This document shows, piece after piece, positions 1,794 to 36,819 of a stretch of DNA of 37,199 nt (position 1 is its first letter; each line of letters opens with the position of its first letter). Location of the stretch: the NCBI GenBank assembly GCA_020073265.1, contig JAIQFN010000058.1, forward strand, positions 1 to 37,199. The letters run 5' to 3'. This DNA is from Terriglobia bacterium (GTDB taxonomy: Bacteria > Acidobacteriota > Terriglobia > Bryobacterales > Bryobacteraceae). Both the position numbers and the translations under genes were made by a program. The notes under the pieces are model-generated. The model saw only the letters and a list, made by a program, of their open reading frames with translations, did no database searches and was not told the DNA's origin.

Positions 1794-1853
1794 CGGCCCA
1801 TTCCAGCGCGAGCAGCTAGAAACGGCGCACCCGAAACTGGTATCCTGGTTGTG

Positions 1854-2053
1854 TCCTCGTAGAGGCGCGGAGGCCATCAGTAGCCGGTGGCGCGGTTCCG
1901 GGAAACTCCGGAGCTGCCGGTGAAAGGGGTCACAAGTCTTCCGCCGAAATCGGCCGCGGCAGTTCTCGCCCGGCGCGATTGGGGGGCCAGGCTAATACCT
2001 GCCCACTGTCATCCGGATCTCGCGGACCGGGATCGGATGGAGCGCTACAGGGA
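1854..2053 (+). promoter_or_regulatory. Lysine riboswitch (L box) aptamer
   Basis: The sequence carries the conserved L-box core in order: GTAGAGGCGC at the 5' side (1859-1868), TGAAAGGGG (1921-1929), GCCGAA (1953 onward), ACTGTCAT (2005-2012) and GGAGCGCTAC (2039-2048) at the 3' side. P1 forms between 1854-1862 (TCCTCGTAG) and 2045-2053 (CTACAGGGA) with 8 of 9 positions pairing. P5 pairs ATCC/GATC near 2011-2019 with GATCGGAT at 2031-2038. It sits directly before dapE and five more lysine-pathway genes, as expected for an Rfam RF00168-type element that senses lysine and lowers expression. I recognised it by motif order; no covariance search was run. Confidence 0.88.
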
Positions 2054-2101
2054 AGCACGCGGCCGTAAGCGCGTCCCCTCCTCCATCCTTCTCAATTTTT
2101 T
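2035..2101 (+). promoter_or_regulatory. Riboswitch expression platform: alternative hairpin and U tract abutting the dapE start
   Basis: GGATGGAG (2035-2042) is perfectly complementary to CTCCATCC (2081-2088). Inside it, AGGGA (2049-2053) can pair with the TCCC/CCCCT at about 2074-2079, and ACGCG (2057-2061) with CGCGT at about 2070-2074. The long hairpin would consume the 3' strands of aptamer P5 and P1, so aptamer and hairpin exclude each other. A run of six T (2096-2101) touches the ATG at 2102, and dapE has no Shine-Dalgarno. The seven nucleotides between stem and T run are more than a standard intrinsic terminator allows. The C-rich, G-poor segment 2073-2095 would be freed when lysine closes P1. 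Confidence 0.6.
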
Positions 2102-29813: not shown

Positions 29814-30425
29814 CTAGTTCGCCGCCACCACATGGGGGCCGCGTTCCGCCGGGGCATTCAGCGAGGCCACCAACTTCGCCTCGCGGGTGGCTATGCCGAG
29901 CTGGATCAACTGGACATCGAGGTTCGTAAAGGCCAGCGGCGACCGCGGCATCCGGTCGAAGTCCTTAGTGTCCCAACGCGCCTTCATGATTCCGCTGTCG
30001 GAATGACTAGCGGTTCCTTCCAGGATATGGGTGATTTCATGCACCAGCACATGCGCCAGCAGCGCCGGGACCGTGCTTTCCGTGACCACTCTCTTCAAGC
30101 GGTCCGAGAATACCCGGATGTGGACTCCTTCGAACGGCTTTGCGCAGGCCAGTGCTCCGGCGCACTCGGAGGCTTCGCTCTGTTCCAGTATATCCACGAC
30201 GATGGCGTCGGGCGGAAGAGCGGAGCGGCCCGCGCTGCGCCACTCGATGGTGACGCCGATCCGCGCGAACATCCTGGCGGCTTGATCCTTGGCGAAATTA
30301 GTCGCCGGAACGGCGTGTTCGTTGGAGATGAAGACTGTGACCGGCCGGCCCTTCGCGCTGACCTCGGCGCCGCGAGCGCTCAACGCCGCCACCGCCGCCA
30401 TCGCAACCATCGCCGTGATCTTCAT
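29814..30425 (-). CDS. Putative secreted zinc metallopeptidase (HExxH-x3-G-x3-H)
   Basis: This 203-residue protein has a signal peptide (MKITAMVAMAAVAALSARGA). Zinc-binding residues H129, E130 and H133 lie in VHEITHILEG, then G137 and H141 (GTASHSD) and M147 in 'SGIMKARW', which could be a Met-turn. This resembles the metzincin layout, but two residues are inserted between the second and third His compared with HExxHxxGxxH. Two Cys (C88, C94) may form a disulfide. The substrate is unknown. The gene sits divergent to an ECF sigma gene and carries the two-block upstream element also found before the gene at 36190-36603. Confidence 0.78.
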   Translation of the reverse strand: MKITAMVAMAAVAALSARGAEVSAKGRPVTVFISNEHAVPATNFAKDQAARMFARIGVTIEWRSAGRSALPPDAIVVDILEQSEASECAGALACAKPFEGVHIRVFSDRLKRVVTESTVPALLAHVLVHEITHILEGTASHSDSGIMKARWDTKDFDRMPRSPLAFTNLDVQLIQLGIATREAKLVASLNAPAERGPHVVAAN

Positions 30426-30475
30426 ATCCGCTTGCCTCCACCCGGCTAAGCGAGGCGGGCAGGCGGGAACTACAA
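30426..30475 (-). promoter_or_regulatory. Shared upstream element, copy A (TTGTAGTT-N15-CGCTTA hairpin)
   Basis: Read on the minus strand, TTGTAGTT (30475 to 30468) is followed after exactly 15 nt by CGCTTAGCCGGGTGGAGG, then an AAGCG arm that closes a CGCTT/AAGCG stem, and then the start of the peptidase gene. The second copy at 36687-36640 keeps both blocks and the 15-nt spacing while the spacer differs. A promoter or leader structure is likely. Confidence 0.6.
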
Positions 30476-30513
30476 GCGGCGGAGAATTTATTTTTCGGCA
30501 GCCGCGATGGGTG

Positions 30514-30519
30514 TATAAT
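30514..30519 (+). promoter_or_regulatory. Consensus -10 box of the ECF sigma factor gene
   Basis: A perfect TATAAT is followed by GAGG at 30531-30534 and the ATG at 30540. The -35 region is AT-rich (TTTTTC at about 30491) but not a good match, so strength and spacing are uncertain. Confidence 0.5.
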
Positions 30520-30539
30520 CCTAATCATTTGAGGCACTT

Positions 30540-31106
30540 ATGGACTCGCAGCCATCCGCCGAAATCACCCGCTTGCTACAGGCCTGGGGCAATGGCGACC
30601 AAGCGGCGCTGGAGCGGCTGACGCCGGTGGTCTACGAAGAGCTTCGTCGCATGGCCCGCCGCTACATGCGGCGCGAGCGGGAGGGGCACACGCTGCAAAC
30701 CACCGCTCTGGTGAACGAAGCGTATCTGCGCCTGGTGGATGTCACGCACGTGAGCTGGCACGATCGCGCGCACTTCTTCGCCGTGTCGGCGCAAATGATG
30801 CGGCGGATTCTGGTGGACGCCGCGCGCAAGCGGGCTTCGGAGCGACGCGGAGGCCGGGCGGTCCGCGCGGAGCTGGAAACAATCCCGGATATGTCTTCGG
30901 GACGCGATCGCGAAATCGTGGCCATCGACGACGCGCTGAAAGCTCTGGCGGAGCTGGACCCGCGCAAAGCCCGCGTCATCGAGTTGCGTTTCTTCGGCGG
31001 CCTGAGTGTCGAGGAAACCGCCGAGGTTTTGAAGATCTCACCGCAAAGCGTGCTGCGCGACTGGAAGCTGGCCAAGGCCTGGCTGATGCGCGAGCTGTCG
31101 CACTGA
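30540..31106 (+). CDS. ECF-family RNA polymerase sigma factor (TIGR02999-like)
   Basis: This 188-residue extracytoplasmic-function sigma factor has region 2 at about residues 26-100 ('VYEELRRMARRYMRRE', 'TLQTTALVNEAYLRLVD', 'FFAVSAQMMRRILVDAARKR') and region 4 at about 130-185 ('LAELDPRKARVIELRFFGGLSVEETAEVLKIS' region). The TIGR02999-like group is abundant in Acidobacteria and Planctomycetes and is often encoded next to a Ser/Thr kinase gene that signals to it. No kinase or anti-sigma gene is present here. It has a consensus TATAAT promoter and diverges from the zinc peptidase gene, whose upstream region holds the shared element. Confidence 0.92.
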   Translation: MDSQPSAEITRLLQAWGNGDQAALERLTPVVYEELRRMARRYMRREREGHTLQTTALVNEAYLRLVDVTHVSWHDRAHFFAVSAQMMRRILVDAARKRASERRGGRAVRAELETIPDMSSGRDREIVAIDDALKALAELDPRKARVIELRFFGGLSVEETAEVLKISPQSVLRDWKLAKAWLMRELSH

Positions 31107-31158
31107 GCTCAGCGCCTCCAGCGTTATTCACCACGATCAGCGGCAAGCTCAGTGCCCA

Positions 31159-34100
31159 TCATGGCGACGTGCCTTCGAGAATCACGGCGTCCAGCCAGGT
31201 GTTGCCGGTTTGATCTCCAAAATAGAAATCCAGCCGCGCCGCAGGATCGGTGGCGGTCGCCTGAAAGTACACGACGTACGGTTGCCAATTGCCGCCCAGC
31301 GAAACGGCGCTATTTTGAGCCACGTCAAACCGCAGCGTGCGCGCGGTATCGGCTTTGGCCCAGAACTGCAGCCTATACACTTGGCCCTGCTGAAGTGGGA
31401 AGCCTGCTTGCTCAAGTTGCACGGCAGCGACATTGACGGTGTTCGTGGCCGCCGAGGTCACGCTGACCTGGGCGGAGGAGCCGGCGTCGACATTCGCTGA
31501 CGTAGTGCGCTGGATGGTTGCGGCTGCGCCCAGGCCGGAGTCCACGCTGAAAGTCCAGGTGTCTGTCAGCGCCAATTCGAAGCTGCCGTTCCGGATCAGA
31601 TTCGGCGGAGCCGTCCCTAGCATGAGCACCAGCGAGGAGCGGGTGTGATCGCCGCCCGCTGACACCTCGATCGGCTGTGGCCCGGCTGCCAGATCCGAAG
31701 GGATCGAGATCCGCACCAGATAAAGTCCGGGCGAAGTCAGACCCGCGAACAGCACCGGAGCCGATTCGCCGCCCACTGTTGCCGTTACTTTCGCGCTCAC
31801 CGGAAACGCGCCTGAGAAAGCTTTGTCGGTGACGAATTTCGATGGATCCGTCGTGGCTCCCAAGCCGAGCATGTACAAGTCGAGGACATCGCCCGGGTAC
31901 GCAGCGCGCACGACCCTGGGGTCCGTGGCGCTGTTGCCAACTAAGAACGTAGTCCCCTGCAATGCCGCCGTGACGAAGAACGTGCTGGCGTCCGCGTTGG
32001 GCGGCGCATACGCCGCTGGCTGCGTCGCCTTGGCGGCAATCGCAAATGGACTGCTGTTTACTCCGTTCACTTGCACGACCACTTGCATGGGCCCGGGCGC
32101 GACCGATGCCGGCACCAAAGCGTTGATCTGCGTCGCGCTCACGTAGAACACCGCCGCGGGCGCGTCGTTGAAGTTGACCGTCACGCCGCCCAGAGTGGTG
32201 GGCAACTGCTGAAGTCCCTTGAGATTCCAAGTCTGCGGCGGCCCCGCCATGTTGGTGCCGGCGATAGTCACCCACAGCCCCGGGGCAATCCCGGCAGTGT
32301 ATCCCCAGGAATCAACGATCGCCTGAATCACAGGAACCGGACCGGTAGCTGCGCCTGTGCCGGAGAGAACGACCGCCAGCGCGCCTCCACTAATGTTGCC
32401 GGTGATGAACAACGATGCCGTCCGAGTGCCCGGCGCGGAAGGGGTGAAGGTGATGTTGATAGTACAACTGGCCGCCGCCGTGACCGCCGAGCCGCAGGTA
32501 TTTGTCTGTGCGAAGTCGGCGCTGTTCGCGCCGCCGATCGTCACGCTGACCGGGTTCAACGCGGCCGCGCCGGTGTTTGTCAGCTTCACGTCTTGTGCGG
32601 CGCTCTTAACCCCGACGGTCTGGCTGCCGAAGTTCAGACTGGTGGCAGACATGGCGGGAGCTTGCACCAAGGCCGGATTCGAACTGGCTGCCTCCGTCAC
32701 GGTGCACGGATGACCGGCAACCAGGATCGTGGTCTGCCGCGCAGGACCGGTGTTGGGCTGGATGGTGTAGTTGACCGCGCCGTTGCCAACGCCCGACCCA
32801 GGCGTCACGGTGACCCAGGGCTGCGGCGACGAAGCCTTCCAGGCGCATCCGTCCGCTGTGATGATGTTCATGGTCCCCTTAGCGCCTCCGGCCGGAGCGG
32901 CGATCGGGGCGGTGGAACTCAGCGAGATCGCACAAAACCCGGTCGCGGTCGAATCCACTGCCAGCGTGATGTTGAGCGTTTCTCCAAAATCGCCGACGCC
33001 CTGGATTCTGAGGCGGCCGGTCAGGCTGGCGGTCTGGCCCATCGTGAAGCCAAGCGGAGCGATCCCAATGCGCTGCAGTGCGGGGACCGGTGCATTAAGT
33101 GGCACATCGCCGAGGCTGGTGTGCAGGAGCACGCCTCCCTTCGAAGCGGCGGCCGGAAGCCATCGAGCCTCGCCTGTGTTCACCAGCGCCGGTGTGATCT
33201 GGCAGGCCGCGCCAGAAGGAATCTTTACCTCGGAGCCGTTTTCGACCGTCACGTCCAGGTTGGGACACACGATGCCTACACCGCCGATCTCGGCATTGGC
33301 GAATTTCAGAGGGCCCAGGCCCGCGTAAGGCGCGTTGCCGATCTGGATGAGAGGCATGCTCGCGGTATCCGTGCCGGTGCCTCGGTCCACGAGCGCAACG
33401 GGATCGCCAGCCTCCCGGGCGGAAACATAACTGCTCTGCGTGTTCAGGAAAAGGGCATACTCGCCGCGGGAGTCGGCATCCCGGTCGACGGTCAGCGCGA
33501 CGGGAGGACCAGCACCCAGGTCCGGCGGCGCAGCGACGAACTTCTCGCTCCATTGCGACAAGACCAGGGCGCAATCGCGCGGGGAGCCATCCGGGTCGAT
33601 GATGCCAAAGTCTTGTTCCGAAAATGGCGCCGCACCGCCGGGCCACCACCAGACGGAGGCGGCGTTAGAACCGTCATCAGCCACCTGGCGCATGATCGTA
33701 TCGCAGAGAGTAGCCTGCGCGGCGCGAGAAGCGACAGTGCCGTACCGCGGCCCGATATCGTAACCGAATTCGGCCCAGTGGACCGGCTTGCCTCCGGTGC
33801 GATAGCGGCTGTACGCGGTGACCAGGCCCCATCTGCGATCGTCCGGCCATGTCGGCGAGCCGTCATAATTTTCCGGCGAGACGAAATCGAGGTGAGCGGC
33901 CGCTGTCCCGATGTCGTAGCCGGTCTGGAAATTATGGTCGAACGTCATGGTGGTCCAGTTGCGATACGTCAACAGCGTATCGGGGTCCGTGCGTCGGATT
34001 TCGCGGGCGATCAGTCCAAGATTGCGGCCGAAGTAGTCGTCGGCAAAACGGTGGAAAGCGGACACCATGATCCGCCAGGGTCCGTCTTCGGCCATCTGGT

Positions 34101-35754
34101 CGTCCAGCGGATTGGTGAGCTGTCCGTCCGCGTCTCGAGGAGCAGTAAAGCCCCAAGTCTGTTCTGCGCTGGCCAGCGATCCGTATTGATCGTTCACCCA
34201 GACGCGCCAGGCGGGATCCAGGATGAGGCGGCCAATGTTGCAAATGTTCTGTCCGTTCATCACGCGGCATTGGCCGCCCTGGTCATGAGAGCCGACGAAG
34301 GGCTCCCAGATCAGATCGTAAGCGAAGACGCGGTCACTGCCCGGAAGATAGGCGGCCTCAAGCATGGATCCCAGCGCGGGGTTGATTGCGCCGGTGTTCG
34401 CCTCACCGGAAAGTGTGGCGGGGAGGGCGATGTTGACCCAGAGGCCGTGATTGCGGCATCGCTCCAGGAAATCGATCAGCGCGCGCGAGTCGCGGGAGCC
34501 AAGATACTTGACGTTAACCAGGTTGAAATGGAGCGCTGCGATCAGCGATAGGTCGGCCTCCACCAATTCCGCATCGTAGTTCTGAGGTTCCAGCCAGTTG
34601 TCCTGGTAGATCGTGCGGCCGACATCGTAACGCGGCCAGTAGTTGACCCCTTGCAGAAACACACGGCGGCCACCGGCATAGAACGACCCGTTGGCGGCGC
34701 GAATCTTCTGGTCCGGCTGACGCGTTAAGGTCGGGTCGAACACGCGGACAGGGCTGTCGATGCGGTCTACTTCTTCCTCGCCGATTTGAACACGGGTGGT
34801 CAGGGTGTAGTCCCCGTTCGGCAACCGCCCCATGTCCAGCGGGACCGAGCGCTGTTCGCCCGCGGCGAGTGAAAGAGGGACGGCCGGCTGCGAGGTTACG
34901 CCGGAGGGGCCCGAAATGGAACACTGCAATGTCACCTGAACCGGAGATCCCGCGGCGTTGAGGACATTTGCGGCCCCGGTGACTTCTTCACCCGGCAGGT
35001 TGACGATCCACTCCGGTCCAGCACTTATGAGATGCACATGATGCCGGGCCGCGTGAAGAGCGGCGATGATCTGTGCGCGCTGCGGATCCCAGACCCGAGG
35101 CCAAGGCAGCCAGATCACCAGGGCTCCCGGATTCAAACCCGTCCAGGCGTTTTGACCGGTAACGAAAAGCGTAGCGGCAGGCGCCAGCGGATCGCCGATG
35201 GCGCGGTAGCGCCCGTCCACGGTAAGCGACGCCGAGAGGCCCCGCCCACGGGGGATTGGGACGCGAACTCCCGAGCTGGCGGTGTACTGCGCGAACCAGG
35301 GCGAGAGCGTTTCGATGATCGTCGGGTACGGATCAAACTCGAGGGGAGGGGAACCAACAGCCTGCAGATATGCGTCCCAGTCCAGCCACTTGCCGTCGGG
35401 CGTGAGATACAGCGGGTCGCGAAAAGGTTCTCCTCCCGTGGCCATCAAGCCTCCGCCATCGAAAACGTGCAGAGCTAGAGCCCAGCACGTATCGTTTGGC
35501 AGGCTCTCCAGTGAGGGCACGGCGACGAGGATATCCGGCATCGCCGCGAGGGCTGCCGGCAGGTCGACTGGGGAAACCGTCGAAACGGTGTAACCTGCTT
35601 CGCTCAGAAGCTGGGTGAATTCCTGTGCTGCGAAGACCCAGCGGTTGTCACGCCATGGACCGTTGCCATCGACCAGCATCGCCCGCGGCGGCGTTTGAGC
35701 AAAGACCGGATGGAGGCAGAGAGCGATCAGAAACACCGACGGGCCGAATCTCAC
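31159..35754 (-). CDS. Giant secreted modular glycoside-hydrolase-like protein with Solibacter C-terminal domain
   Basis: This 1531-residue exported protein (signal MRFGPSVFLIALCLHPVFAQ) has, in order, a Rossmann/flavodoxin-like N-terminal domain (about 24-245) and an Ig-like linker (about 250-340). A GH5/GH42-like TIM barrel follows (about 355-745) with candidate acid/base E484 (IWEPF) and nucleophile E662 (HWAEFGYD) plus W702-W704. Next come beta-sandwich segments including a BACON-like domain (about 940-1022) and an ASH/choice-of-anchor-D domain (about 1036-1135). A TIGR03437-like Solibacter domain (about 1140-1380) and a CBM4/9-like jelly roll (about 1384-1531) end it. It probably degrades a plant or microbial polysaccharide outside the cell. 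Confidence 0.85.
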   Translation of the reverse strand: MRFGPSVFLIALCLHPVFAQTPPRAMLVDGNGPWRDNRWVFAAQEFTQLLSEAGYTVSTVSPVDLPAALAAMPDILVAVPSLESLPNDTCWALALHVFDGGGLMATGGEPFRDPLYLTPDGKWLDWDAYLQAVGSPPLEFDPYPTIIETLSPWFAQYTASSGVRVPIPRGRGLSASLTVDGRYRAIGDPLAPAATLFVTGQNAWTGLNPGALVIWLPWPRVWDPQRAQIIAALHAARHHVHLISAGPEWIVNLPGEEVTGAANVLNAAGSPVQVTLQCSISGPSGVTSQPAVPLSLAAGEQRSVPLDMGRLPNGDYTLTTRVQIGEEEVDRIDSPVRVFDPTLTRQPDQKIRAANGSFYAGGRRVFLQGVNYWPRYDVGRTIYQDNWLEPQNYDAELVEADLSLIAALHFNLVNVKYLGSRDSRALIDFLERCRNHGLWVNIALPATLSGEANTGAINPALGSMLEAAYLPGSDRVFAYDLIWEPFVGSHDQGGQCRVMNGQNICNIGRLILDPAWRVWVNDQYGSLASAEQTWGFTAPRDADGQLTNPLDDQMAEDGPWRIMVSAFHRFADDYFGRNLGLIAREIRRTDPDTLLTYRNWTTMTFDHNFQTGYDIGTAAAHLDFVSPENYDGSPTWPDDRRWGLVTAYSRYRTGGKPVHWAEFGYDIGPRYGTVASRAAQATLCDTIMRQVADDGSNAASVWWWPGGAAPFSEQDFGIIDPDGSPRDCALVLSQWSEKFVAAPPDLGAGPPVALTVDRDADSRGEYALFLNTQSSYVSAREAGDPVALVDRGTGTDTASMPLIQIGNAPYAGLGPLKFANAEIGGVGIVCPNLDVTVENGSEVKIPSGAACQITPALVNTGEARWLPAAASKGGVLLHTSLGDVPLNAPVPALQRIGIAPLGFTMGQTASLTGRLRIQGVGDFGETLNITLAVDSTATGFCAISLSSTAPIAAPAGGAKGTMNIITADGCAWKASSPQPWVTVTPGSGVGNGAVNYTIQPNTGPARQTTILVAGHPCTVTEAASSNPALVQAPAMSATSLNFGSQTVGVKSAAQDVKLTNTGAAALNPVSVTIGGANSADFAQTNTCGSAVTAAASCTINITFTPSAPGTRTASLFITGNISGGALAVVLSGTGAATGPVPVIQAIVDSWGYTAGIAPGLWVTIAGTNMAGPPQTWNLKGLQQLPTTLGGVTVNFNDAPAAVFYVSATQINALVPASVAPGPMQVVVQVNGVNSSPFAIAAKATQPAAYAPPNADASTFFVTAALQGTTFLVGNSATDPRVVRAAYPGDVLDLYMLGLGATTDPSKFVTDKAFSGAFPVSAKVTATVGGESAPVLFAGLTSPGLYLVRISIPSDLAAGPQPIEVSAGGDHTRSSLVLMLGTAPPNLIRNGSFELALTDTWTFSVDSGLGAAATIQRTTSANVDAGSSAQVSVTSAATNTVNVAAVQLEQAGFPLQQGQVYRLQFWAKADTARTLRFDVAQNSAVSLGGNWQPYVVYFQATATDPAARLDFYFGDQTGNTWLDAVILEGTSP

Positions 35755-36036
35755 GCTTGCTTTTCCTTTCTGGTCTTGTCAAAGCTCCTACGATCGTGCT
35801 GGGTCATCACTTGCCGCCCAGGTTCGTGGCTGCCTCCACGTTGCAGTTGGCTATGTACTCCTTTCCGCTCCTGTTGATCACGAACTTGCGCTTGGGCATT
35901 CCGGGCCTATGCGGGGCGACACTGCTTTTCGAGCACATCCATTGCCAGCAGGGGAACTGGCGACAGCCCCTGGTCCAGGTCAGTTAGTCTTGTTCAATCA
36001 GTTGATTGTGGACGGTAACGGTTCTCTAGGGGTTTT

Positions 36037-36093
36037 TGACAGAGGTGTCAATACGGGTCGAAATCCCCACAAGGTCTGGTTGAAATTCCCCTT
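36037..36093. mobile_element. Possible IS21-family end relic
   Basis: GGTCGAAATCCCCAC (36056-36070) and GGTTGAAATTCCCC (36078-36091) are near copies starting 22 nt apart, preceded by TGACA-GAGG-TGTCA (36037-36050). Repeated words of the type GGTxGAAATTCCCCA, spaced about 20 nt apart, are known from the transposase-binding termini of IS21-family elements. No transposase gene or second end is visible, so this would be a solo end. The assignment rests on recalled motif resemblance. Confidence 0.35.
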
Positions 36094-36109
36094 ACGCGGC
36101 ACTCGTAAG

Positions 36110-36174
36110 CCGTCCGCTAAGACCAGGCGGACGGGCCGGCAAGCAGAGTCCAACCTTGACTCGACCCGCCGGCC
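36110..36174. terminator. Two adjacent hairpins at the 3' side of the small secreted gene
   Basis: CCGTCCGC (36110-36117) pairs with GCGGACGG (36127-36134). GGCCGGC (36134-36140) pairs with GCCGGCC (36168-36174), enclosing an inner GAGTC/GACTC stem (36146-36150 with 36158-36162). They lie 16 nt beyond the stop of the minus-strand gene ending at 36190, so they may protect or terminate its mRNA. No T run follows, so a standard Rho-independent terminator is not shown. Confidence 0.4.
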
Positions 36175-36189
36175 TGATTTTCAAAGCGC

Positions 36190-36603
36190 TCAATGCGCTG
36201 TTACGTTGATCGTTTCGCCCGGACCCGCCCCTTTGGCGATCAGTTTGCGCTCCAGCGCGGTCTGAGGAAGGCTGAACCCATCAGCGCTTCTTGAACCCCA
36301 CATTTCCACCAGTATGCTGGTGTTGCCGTAACGATGAAAGACCAGCCTTCCCTGTGGCTGGACCTGCGCAGCCATTTCGGGCGTTCCAATTCCGAGGATG
36401 TTCGACTTGTGATTGCTCGACTCGATGGCCAGAATGGGGATGCTGTTGACCCGTTTCACCGCGTACTCACCCGCCGGCAGTGTCTTCGTGCCGGCCACGA
36501 ACTCGAACGGAATGTTCGCTTGAATTACCGGACGATCCTCTGCGTAGCTAGCACCGGCTGCCAGCGCCGCGATCATCGATATGTGAAGCAGATGCTTTCT
36601 CAT
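36190..36603 (-). CDS. Small secreted 'PAGEY' protein of unknown function
   Basis: This 137-residue protein has a signal peptide (MRKHLLHISMIAALAAGASYA). Its beta-rich mature part includes 'IQANIPFEFVAGTKTLPAGEYAVKRV', a segment I associate with a family common in Acidobacteria whose role is not known. GGAGG lies 4 nt before ATG 36603. An in-frame ATG at 36639 would add 12 residues. That ATG sits at the same place relative to the shared upstream element as the start of the zinc peptidase gene does, so the longer start remains possible. Confidence 0.78.
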   Translation of the reverse strand: MRKHLLHISMIAALAAGASYAEDRPVIQANIPFEFVAGTKTLPAGEYAVKRVNSIPILAIESSNHKSNILGIGTPEMAAQVQPQGRLVFHRYGNTSILVEMWGSRSADGFSLPQTALERKLIAKGAGPGETINVTAH

Positions 36604-36639
36604 GGAACCTCCATTTGGGGATCGCCTTCCATAGGCCAT

Positions 36640-36687
36640 CCCGCTTCCTTCACCCGGGTAAGCGGAATCCGGAGCGAGAAACTACAA
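36640..36687 (-). promoter_or_regulatory. Shared upstream element, copy B (TTGTAGTT-N15-CGCTTA hairpin)
   Basis: Read on the minus strand, TTGTAGTT (36687 to 36680), then 15 nt, then CGCTTACCCGGGTGAAGG and AAGCGG, which closes a CCGCTT/AAGCGG stem around a 13-nt loop. The blocks and spacing match copy A at 30475-30426, while the spacer does not. The rest of 36688-36819 shows no gene or other structure that I can support. Confidence 0.6.
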
Positions 36688-36819
36688 CGTGGAAGAAATA
36701 TTTCGTTCGCACGGCATGCCGCCCAGCCACCACGCGCGGGAGGTGGCTTCCTGGATGGTGCTCCGCGCGCCCGCCGGATTCACGCTCAATCCAGGCTACT
36801 TGGTGTAAAGTTGTTCTGG

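Follow-up and report, generated by a model that had tools for sequence, protein, structure and literature searches.

A two-block element on the minus strand of contig JAIQFN010000058.1 from a Terriglobia soil bacterium of the family Bryobacteraceae (assembly GCA_020073265.1), analyzed here over its positions 1 to 37,199 (the window), is very probably a promoter for RNA polymerase carrying a TIGR02999/PF07638-type extracytoplasmic function (ECF) sigma factor; the most likely candidate is P0003, encoded at 30540–31106. The element precedes two genes for predicted exported proteins, one of them divergent from the P0003 gene, and the original prediction had offered for it either a class of promoters recognized by the neighbouring ECF factor or an RNA leader with a caged Shine–Dalgarno sequence. 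The former is strongly supported by the spacing of the blocks, by their covariation with the sigma domains and by a conserved set of target genes. We infer from sequence that P0003 itself most likely reads all copies; its binding, the transcription start and the activating signal considered below are predictions of the same kind.

The pattern TTGTAGTT-N15-CGCTTA(G/C)CCGGGTG(G/A)AGG was found on the minus strand at 30475–30435 (copy 1) and 36687–36647 (copy 2), and the two positions, the strand, the 15-nt spacing and the differing spacers described in the original prediction were all borne out. The full pattern had no match in 100 dinucleotide shuffles of the window. Its 14-base core, TTGTAGTT-N15-CGCTTA, occurred three times in the whole 6.41 Mb genome (131 contigs), where ∼0.05 occurrences would be expected in random sequence by our own estimate. 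A genome scan at one mismatch in the core revealed no site beyond these three, and the reversed-pattern control gave none at 0 mismatches and one at ≤1 mismatch. The genome-wide search suggested in the original prediction thereby yielded one further copy, located on another contig (G000:C41:5352-5312(-)) and differing from the two-block pattern at three positions, all 3′ of CGCTTA. This third copy precedes the gene for P0004, a paralogue showing 38% identity to the protein encoded at 36603 (P0001). Copies 2 and 3 do therefore precede paralogues, but the gene behind copy 1 belongs to a different family. A dispersed repeat, or shared ancestry of the upstream DNA, was ruled out because the spacers differ while the blocks are retained.

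The recurrence of the element beside related ECF genes was evaluated in two collections, namely, set 1 (76 ECF genes, from relatives as well as the own genome) and set 2 (80 loci from GTDB contigs). From set 1, the near-identical loci L116, L129, L130, and L147 and those with too little upstream DNA (L074, L117, and L143) were dropped, leaving 69 loci for matrix training, and 11 own loci were also dropped for the spacing test, leaving 58. From set 2, 73 of the 80 loci were used, of which four repeats of set 1 were removed by an exact 100-nt test to give 69; some nearly identical pairs may have escaped this test, and the two sets may share source genomes. Block pairs with ≤2 mismatches to TTGTAGTT and ≤1 to CGCTTA were counted on the strand divergent from the ECF gene at spacings of 5–26 nt. 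Four pairs were observed at 15 nt in set 1, with at most one at any of the 21 other spacings, and seven at 15 nt in set 2, with at most two at other spacings. The 15-nt peak was still the highest at the loosest thresholds (3 and 2 mismatches), with 16/58 loci in set 1 and 23/69 in set 2, over a background of up to 12 and 17, respectively, at other spacings; owing to this large background, the stricter settings were relied upon.

A matrix trained on set 1 by expectation maximization (EM) reached a log-likelihood of 318, compared with 157 on the ECF strand and 94–157 in 10 shuffled sets, which were first-order resamplings run for 25 EM rounds against 40 for the real set. The same matrix, applied unchanged to set 2, scored ≥12 bits in 26/69 divergent regions and in 2/69 on the ECF strand. 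Many of the genes behind matrix sites begin with a signal-peptide-like stretch, as judged by eye. The exact TTGTAGTT pattern had no match outside the own genome in 60 relatives, and it was on letting the −35 block vary, as TTRTAGTT or through the matrix, that the class was revealed in relatives. A search with 12 specified bases at one mismatch was uninformative (8 matches, five of them with a single mismatch, compared with 36 for the reversed control). Among the loci examined, the ECF reading frame is interrupted by a stop codon in two relatives (L124 and L143), and L124, with only a weak promoter match (9.9 bits), adjoins a gene for a distant homologue of the HExxH protein encoded behind copy 1.

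The location of the sites was more revealing than their number. Among 200 family genomes, one of them the own genome, TTRTAGTT-N15-CGCTTA had 11 exact matches, in 8 genomes, and the reversed pattern 16, in 15 genomes. All 11 exact sites were located within ∼1.5 kb of a homologue of the ECF factor, of P0001/P0004 or of P0002 (the HExxH protein), compared with none of the 16 control loci; the same held for 8/8 exact sites outside the own genome, of which L235 and L236 are near-identical. The relaxed pattern TTRTAGTT-N15-CGSTWA gave 13 matches in 7 of 10 genomes searched and two for the reversed control. Several sites have no ECF homologue in the 3-kb locus and precede genes for either HExxH proteins (L237, L238, L240, and L245, of which L237 and L245 seem to coincide) or P0001-like proteins (L233 and L234, in addition to copies 2 and 3). 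As the longest open reading frame was taken for the genes behind set-2, relaxed-pattern and exact-pattern sites, some start codons are probably placed too far upstream. As HExxH and P0001-like proteins recur behind TTRTAGTT sites in relatives, both predicted targets in the window are recurrent targets of the same putative promoter in other species. Relatives carry 17 homologues of P0002, five of which directly adjoin an ECF gene, and the protein of L164, which also adjoins an ECF gene, is a homologue of P0001 (E 4e-8).

Covariation of the blocks with the sigma domains was assessed in 37 ECF/site pairs, excluding ECF proteins with an internal stop, duplicates and four doubtful own sites (L044, L045, L050, and L052; 17.8–21.1 bits, at kinase-type ECF genes). 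These four were left out post hoc, by judgement after the scores had been seen, most being far upstream or without a good −10, though that of L050 (CGTTTA) was acceptable. Distances between −35 blocks correlated with those between sigma4 domains (r 0.33) and not with sigma2 (−0.01); −10 distances correlated with sigma2 (0.39) and less with sigma4 (0.27), and spacer distances followed neither domain (0.09 and 0.07). The partial correlations were 0.41 for −35 with sigma4 given sigma2 and −0.25 for −35 with sigma2 given sigma4, and 0.30 for −10 with sigma2 given sigma4 and 0.06 for −10 with sigma4 given sigma2. The dissociation persisted among pairs whose sigma2 domains differ by ≥25% up to ≥40%, and the combined dissociation exceeded all 2000 permutations in the two full sets and in set 1. 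A scan of variable residues against block bases placed Ser170 and Gln169 (P0003 numbering), both in the sigma4 helix-turn-helix, as the top two links, each with −35 base 2; Ser170 was accompanied by T at this base in 11/11 cases and other residues in 6/26.

Several observations weigh against the promoter reading. The exact pattern was no commoner than its reversed control, so that the raw number of sites proves nothing and only their location differs. The matrix was seeded with the window motif, and no more than about half of the ECF loci carried the motif (EM fraction 0.49 of 69 in set 1, and the 26/69 of set 2). In set 2 alone, 300/2000 permutations reached the combined dissociation, although the link of −35 with sigma4 was still beyond all permutations (0/2000). 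The residue scan is not clean, as its top ten also includes sigma4 residues linked with −10 bases (Ser170 with base 31 and Ala144 with base 33), and sequence relatedness was only partly controlled in the covariation tests. The −35 block lacks AAC and the −10 reads CGC instead of CGT, the early hallmarks of ECF promoters according to passages of PMC8103513, in which later definitions rest on the sigma2/sigma4 domains. Also, the own genome encodes 12 TIGR02999 members above the cut-off, another of which could read copies 2 and 3.

If the element acts as proposed, sigma domain 4 would bind TTGTAGTT as the −35 element and domain 2 would bind CGCTTA as the −10 element, with a predicted start ∼7 nt after the −10, inside GGGTG(A/G)AGG, and an A+T-rich stretch upstream. 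Such a stretch was observed by eye ∼10–20 nt upstream in all three own copies, and the A+T fraction over 55 sites was 0.78 at 15–11 nt upstream of the −35. The ECF gene lies on the other strand behind a putative housekeeping-type promoter; TATANN was present 5–60 nt upstream in 32/73 ECF loci, compared with 4/73 in a control stretch 125–180 nt upstream. This excess suggests that ECF genes of the family use housekeeping-type promoters, unlike the element, and that the P0003 gene is not autoregulated. P0003 would accordingly be made beforehand and activated after synthesis, and once active it would switch on the divergent gene for the HExxH protein as well as the genes for P0001 and for its paralogue P0004 on contig C41. 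The coordinates of these features are listed in Table 1.

Table 1. Features of the proposed promoters and of the genes around them (window positions).
Feature	Position	Strand	Basis
Putative −35 element TTGTAGTT, copy 1 (HExxH-protein gene)	30468..30475	-	Sequence, genome scan; class-wide −35/sigma4 covariation
Putative −10 element CGCTTA, copy 1	30447..30452	-	Exactly 15 nt 3′ of the −35 block; class-wide spacing peak
GGGTGGAGG, candidate discriminator/initiation region of copy 1	30435..30443	-	Sequence; similar GGGTGAAGG at copy 2, L233, and L234
A+T-rich tract GAAAAATAAATT 5′ of copy-1 −35, UP-element-like	30485..30496	-	Sequence; class-wide A+T profile
Inverted repeat CGCTT...AAGCG, copy 1	30429..30452	-	Arms 30452-30448 / 30433-30429; not conserved across the class
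Putative −35 element TTGTAGTT, copy 2	36680..36687	-	Sequence, genome scan
Putative −10 element CGCTTA, copy 2	36659..36664	-	Exactly 15 nt 3′ of the −35 block
GGGTGAAGG, candidate discriminator/initiation region of copy 2	36647..36655	-	Sequence
A+T-rich tract GAAATATTT upstream of copy 2	36696..36704	-	Sequence; class-wide A+T profile
Inverted repeat CGCTT...AAGCG, copy 2	36642..36664	-	Arms 36664-36660 / 36646-36642
Gene for P0002 (203 aa), a predicted exported HExxH protein; putative target, divergent from the ECF gene	29814..30425	-	Sequence; homologues in relatives
Small predicted secreted protein P0001, 137 aa, putative copy-2 target	36190..36603	-	Sequence; homologues behind the same promoter elsewhere
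ECF sigma factor P0003, TIGR02999/PF07638, QTTA replacing the acidic sigma2.2 motif	30540..31106	+	Profile scores
TATAAT, likely housekeeping-type −10 of the ECF gene	30514..30519	+	Sequence; TATANN excess upstream of family genes

The element might instead be a real promoter that is recognized not by P0003 but by a different ECF paralogue or the housekeeping sigma factor, and this we consider improbable. The 12 family members provide candidates, and neither copy 2, separated by ∼5.6 kb from the end of the P0003 gene, nor copy 3, on another contig, adjoins an ECF gene. Copy 1, in contrast, is placed between P0003 and its divergent neighbour, an arrangement that recurs in relatives, and the class of the −35 follows residues 169/170 of the adjacent ECF factor. 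As the own genome has no further TTGTAGTT-class site at ≤1 mismatch, there is none beside another of its ECF genes. Also against this reading, the hexamers upstream of the ECF genes themselves are TATANN-like and unlike CGCTTA.

Slightly less probable still is the RNA leader, in which transcription would start upstream and the second block would be held in a hairpin that hides the Shine–Dalgarno sequence. The inverted repeat CGCTT/AAGCG described in the original prediction was indeed found in both window copies, where the stem is possible, and AAGCG followed within 24 nt in 4/10 sites whose −10 begins with CGCTT. The third own copy retains only GCTT/AAGC, the full stem is also missing at L128 and L159, and the dyads differ in sequence between loci. 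Folding and pairing in set 1 were evaluated with 26 sites (22 hand-picked ECF loci, copy 2, the C41 copy, L100, and L107). The segment from spacer to leader folded better than dinucleotide shuffles (mean z −1.01, 13/26 below −1), compared with a mean z of −0.07 (n = 19) for the upstream control; copy 2, with z 0.21, was no more stable than its shuffles. Native spacer and leader halves showed more complementarity than chimeras (12/3000 in set 1, 16/5000 in both sets). Part of this signal is general, since excess pairing was likewise observed between the spacer and a region 26–52 nt 3′ of the −10 in set 1 (11/3000) and, over both sets, between the leader and a more distal part of itself (9/5000). 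In set 2 alone (29 loci, comprising 25 of the 26 with ≥12 bits, L230 being left out, and four with 4.0–11.3 bits), the excess was weak for the spacer plus −10 (291/5000) and absent for the spacer only (2255/5000).

Start codons predicted by the longest-frame rule lie 1 to 173 nt after the −10, which argues against a tie between the element and a Shine–Dalgarno sequence, and a covariation with the sigma factor that is specific to each domain would not be expected of a leader. The comparison with Rfam that the original prediction had suggested returned no described family at the element; the only match in the window is a lysine riboswitch elsewhere, and the best sub-threshold match near copy 1 (E 0.51, 15.2 bits compared with a gathering score of 34.7) is at 30499–30520, outside the element. 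The caged leader is thus not supported as a general explanation, and, as the hairpin excess appears in one collection and not clearly in the other, it is unlikely to be the main function of the element and secondary at best. A start ∼7 nt 3′ of the −10 would exclude the 5′ arm from the element's own transcript, and the stem could therefore form only in read-through transcripts; that it would keep these untranslated is speculation. As for a conventional activator or repressor binding site, the conserved blocks and the inverted repeat in some copies would fit one, but the geometry is that of a promoter (23 bp from block start to block start, with an upstream A+T tract), covariation links the blocks separately to sigma4 and sigma2, the DNA-binding domains of the ECF factor, and the dyad sequences differ between loci, so that we give this explanation hardly any weight.

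GGGTGGAGG, which follows the −10 at copy 1, can double as a Shine–Dalgarno sequence for the ATG at 30425. GGGTGAAGG keeps a near-constant distance from the −10 (copies 1 and 2, L233, and L234) though the predicted start is 53 or 87 nt away, and it may be a discriminator or a signal in the initial transcript.

P0003 scored 238.3 bits against TIGR02999 (cut-off 126.15) and 200.6 bits against PF07638 (cut-off 21.1), and no relative was found among solved structures at E≤0.001. Its sigma2.2 motif, LQTTALVNEAYL, carries QTTA. Among 118 ECF proteins, QTTA was present in 39 and QATA, QPTA or QSTA in 42, with 14 unmatched by the regular expression. The motif is the likeness of P0003 to ECF43 (EcfP of Vibrio parahaemolyticus and EcfK of Xanthomonas citri). 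According to passages of PMC13147305, QTTA is the ECF43 consensus; it replaces the acidic sigma2.2 residues and contains a threonine that is phosphorylated, and passages of PMC8999054 likewise describe threonine phosphorylation in ECF43. The EcfK T51A variant is nevertheless still functional according to the same passages of PMC13147305, which tempers the role of this threonine even in ECF43. It is plausible that P0003 is activated, like ECF43 factors, through phosphorylation of a threonine, although the adjacent Hanks-type kinase gene that marks ECF43 is absent beside P0003. Two kinase signatures sought by regular expression in six frames of the window were not found, and Pfam gave no kinase or anti-sigma match in the four neighbouring proteins, this being the only anti-sigma search made; to this extent, the description of the ECF factor as an orphan in the original prediction holds. 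P0003 resembles ECF43 in its motif and is not assigned to it.

A kinase signature occurs just downstream of the ECF gene in 4/13 loci with a TT-type −35 and in 21/23 with other −35 types, which places P0003 in a mostly kinase-less subset. At L160, L163, and L182, a Ser/Thr kinase signature is found in the divergent region behind an ECF-type promoter, which suggests that the ECF factor there drives its own presumed activating kinase. Another seven loci (L073, L115, L120, L121, L122, L125, and L127) combine a −35 of TGATA, TGATC or TGGCC type with a CGCCT −10; their divergent proteins show a Y(T/S)(V/L)xDLG pattern after a signal-like stretch, and each has a kinase signature just 3′ of the ECF gene.

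The gene behind copy 1 had been labelled a zinc peptidase gene in the original prediction. The label agrees with a conserved HEITH...H...G(I/V)M stretch shared by P0002 and two relatives, whereas Pfam returned only Zincin_1, below threshold (E 0.063). A comparison of the HExxH-protein alignment with solved structures gave only a chance-level match (E 0.86). For P0001, two in-frame ATGs on the minus strand, at 36603 and 36639, compete as the start, with GGAGG just 5′ of 36603. The four neighbours scanned against Pfam were an aldo/keto reductase, an NDH2-like protein, the HExxH protein and a CBM protein. Between both target genes, 31159–35754 (−) encodes a protein of 1531 aa with CBM_4_9, TIG and ASH above the Pfam cut-off and BACON just below, possibly a large exported carbohydrate-binding protein. 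The lysine riboswitch aptamer lies at 1852–2055 (+) and scored 66.4 bits compared with a gathering score of 30.

ECF factors of the TIGR02999 family can be numerous in acidobacterial genomes, as the 12 of the present genome illustrate, and PMC3174227 describes a large number of sigma-24 homologues in Solibacter. No promoter motif for TIGR02999/PF07638 ECF factors in Acidobacteria was found in the open-licence literature, as represented by titles, abstract beginnings and passages of PMC8999054, PMC13147305, PMC8103513 and PMC3174227; an earlier description elsewhere is possible. A poorly understood ECF family thus gains predicted targets, an exported HExxH protein and a small secreted protein, and the divergent-gene layout offers a readable −35/−10 code together with a small conserved target set. 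Given an ECF sequence, its targets would become predictable, and hard-to-grow organisms could be tested in a laboratory host. It is conceivable, though we would not yet favour it, that Bryobacteraceae and their relatives operate many parallel, mutually insulated, non-autoregulated TIGR02999 channels, each with its own −35 variant, determined largely by recognition-helix residues 169–170 of sigma4, and with one to three promoters of exported proteins, as single-purpose local switches; at some loci, a spacer-leader fold would silence read-through transcripts so that only the ECF-started transcript is used.

The proposed promoters share with classical ECF promoters (AAC −35, CGT −10) the two short blocks, the promoter spacing, a −10 starting with CG and the upstream A+T tract, as well as a −35 specificity that follows sigma4 and a −10 specificity that follows sigma2. 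UP elements are known at ECF promoters. The proposed promoters differ from the classical ones in the sequence of the −35, which is TTRTAGTT here and TGACAGTT, CTACAGTT, TGATCN or TGGCCG in other members of the class, in a −10 of CGCTTA/CGCYT and in a sigma gene that is seemingly not behind its own promoter type. Recognition codes derived from autoregulated ECF factors (ref. 50 of PMC8103513) reportedly link sigma residues to −35 and −10 bases in a position-specific manner. The present links are similarly position-specific but were read from divergent targets of apparently non-autoregulated ECF factors, mainly of Acidobacteria. According to passages of PMC8103513, the prediction of target promoters rests on known pairs and on autoregulated ECF factors. 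Autoregulation, the usual route to a motif according to the same passages, would miss the present class, whose sigma genes apparently have a different type of promoter in front of them, and it is from the divergent neighbours that the code becomes readable.

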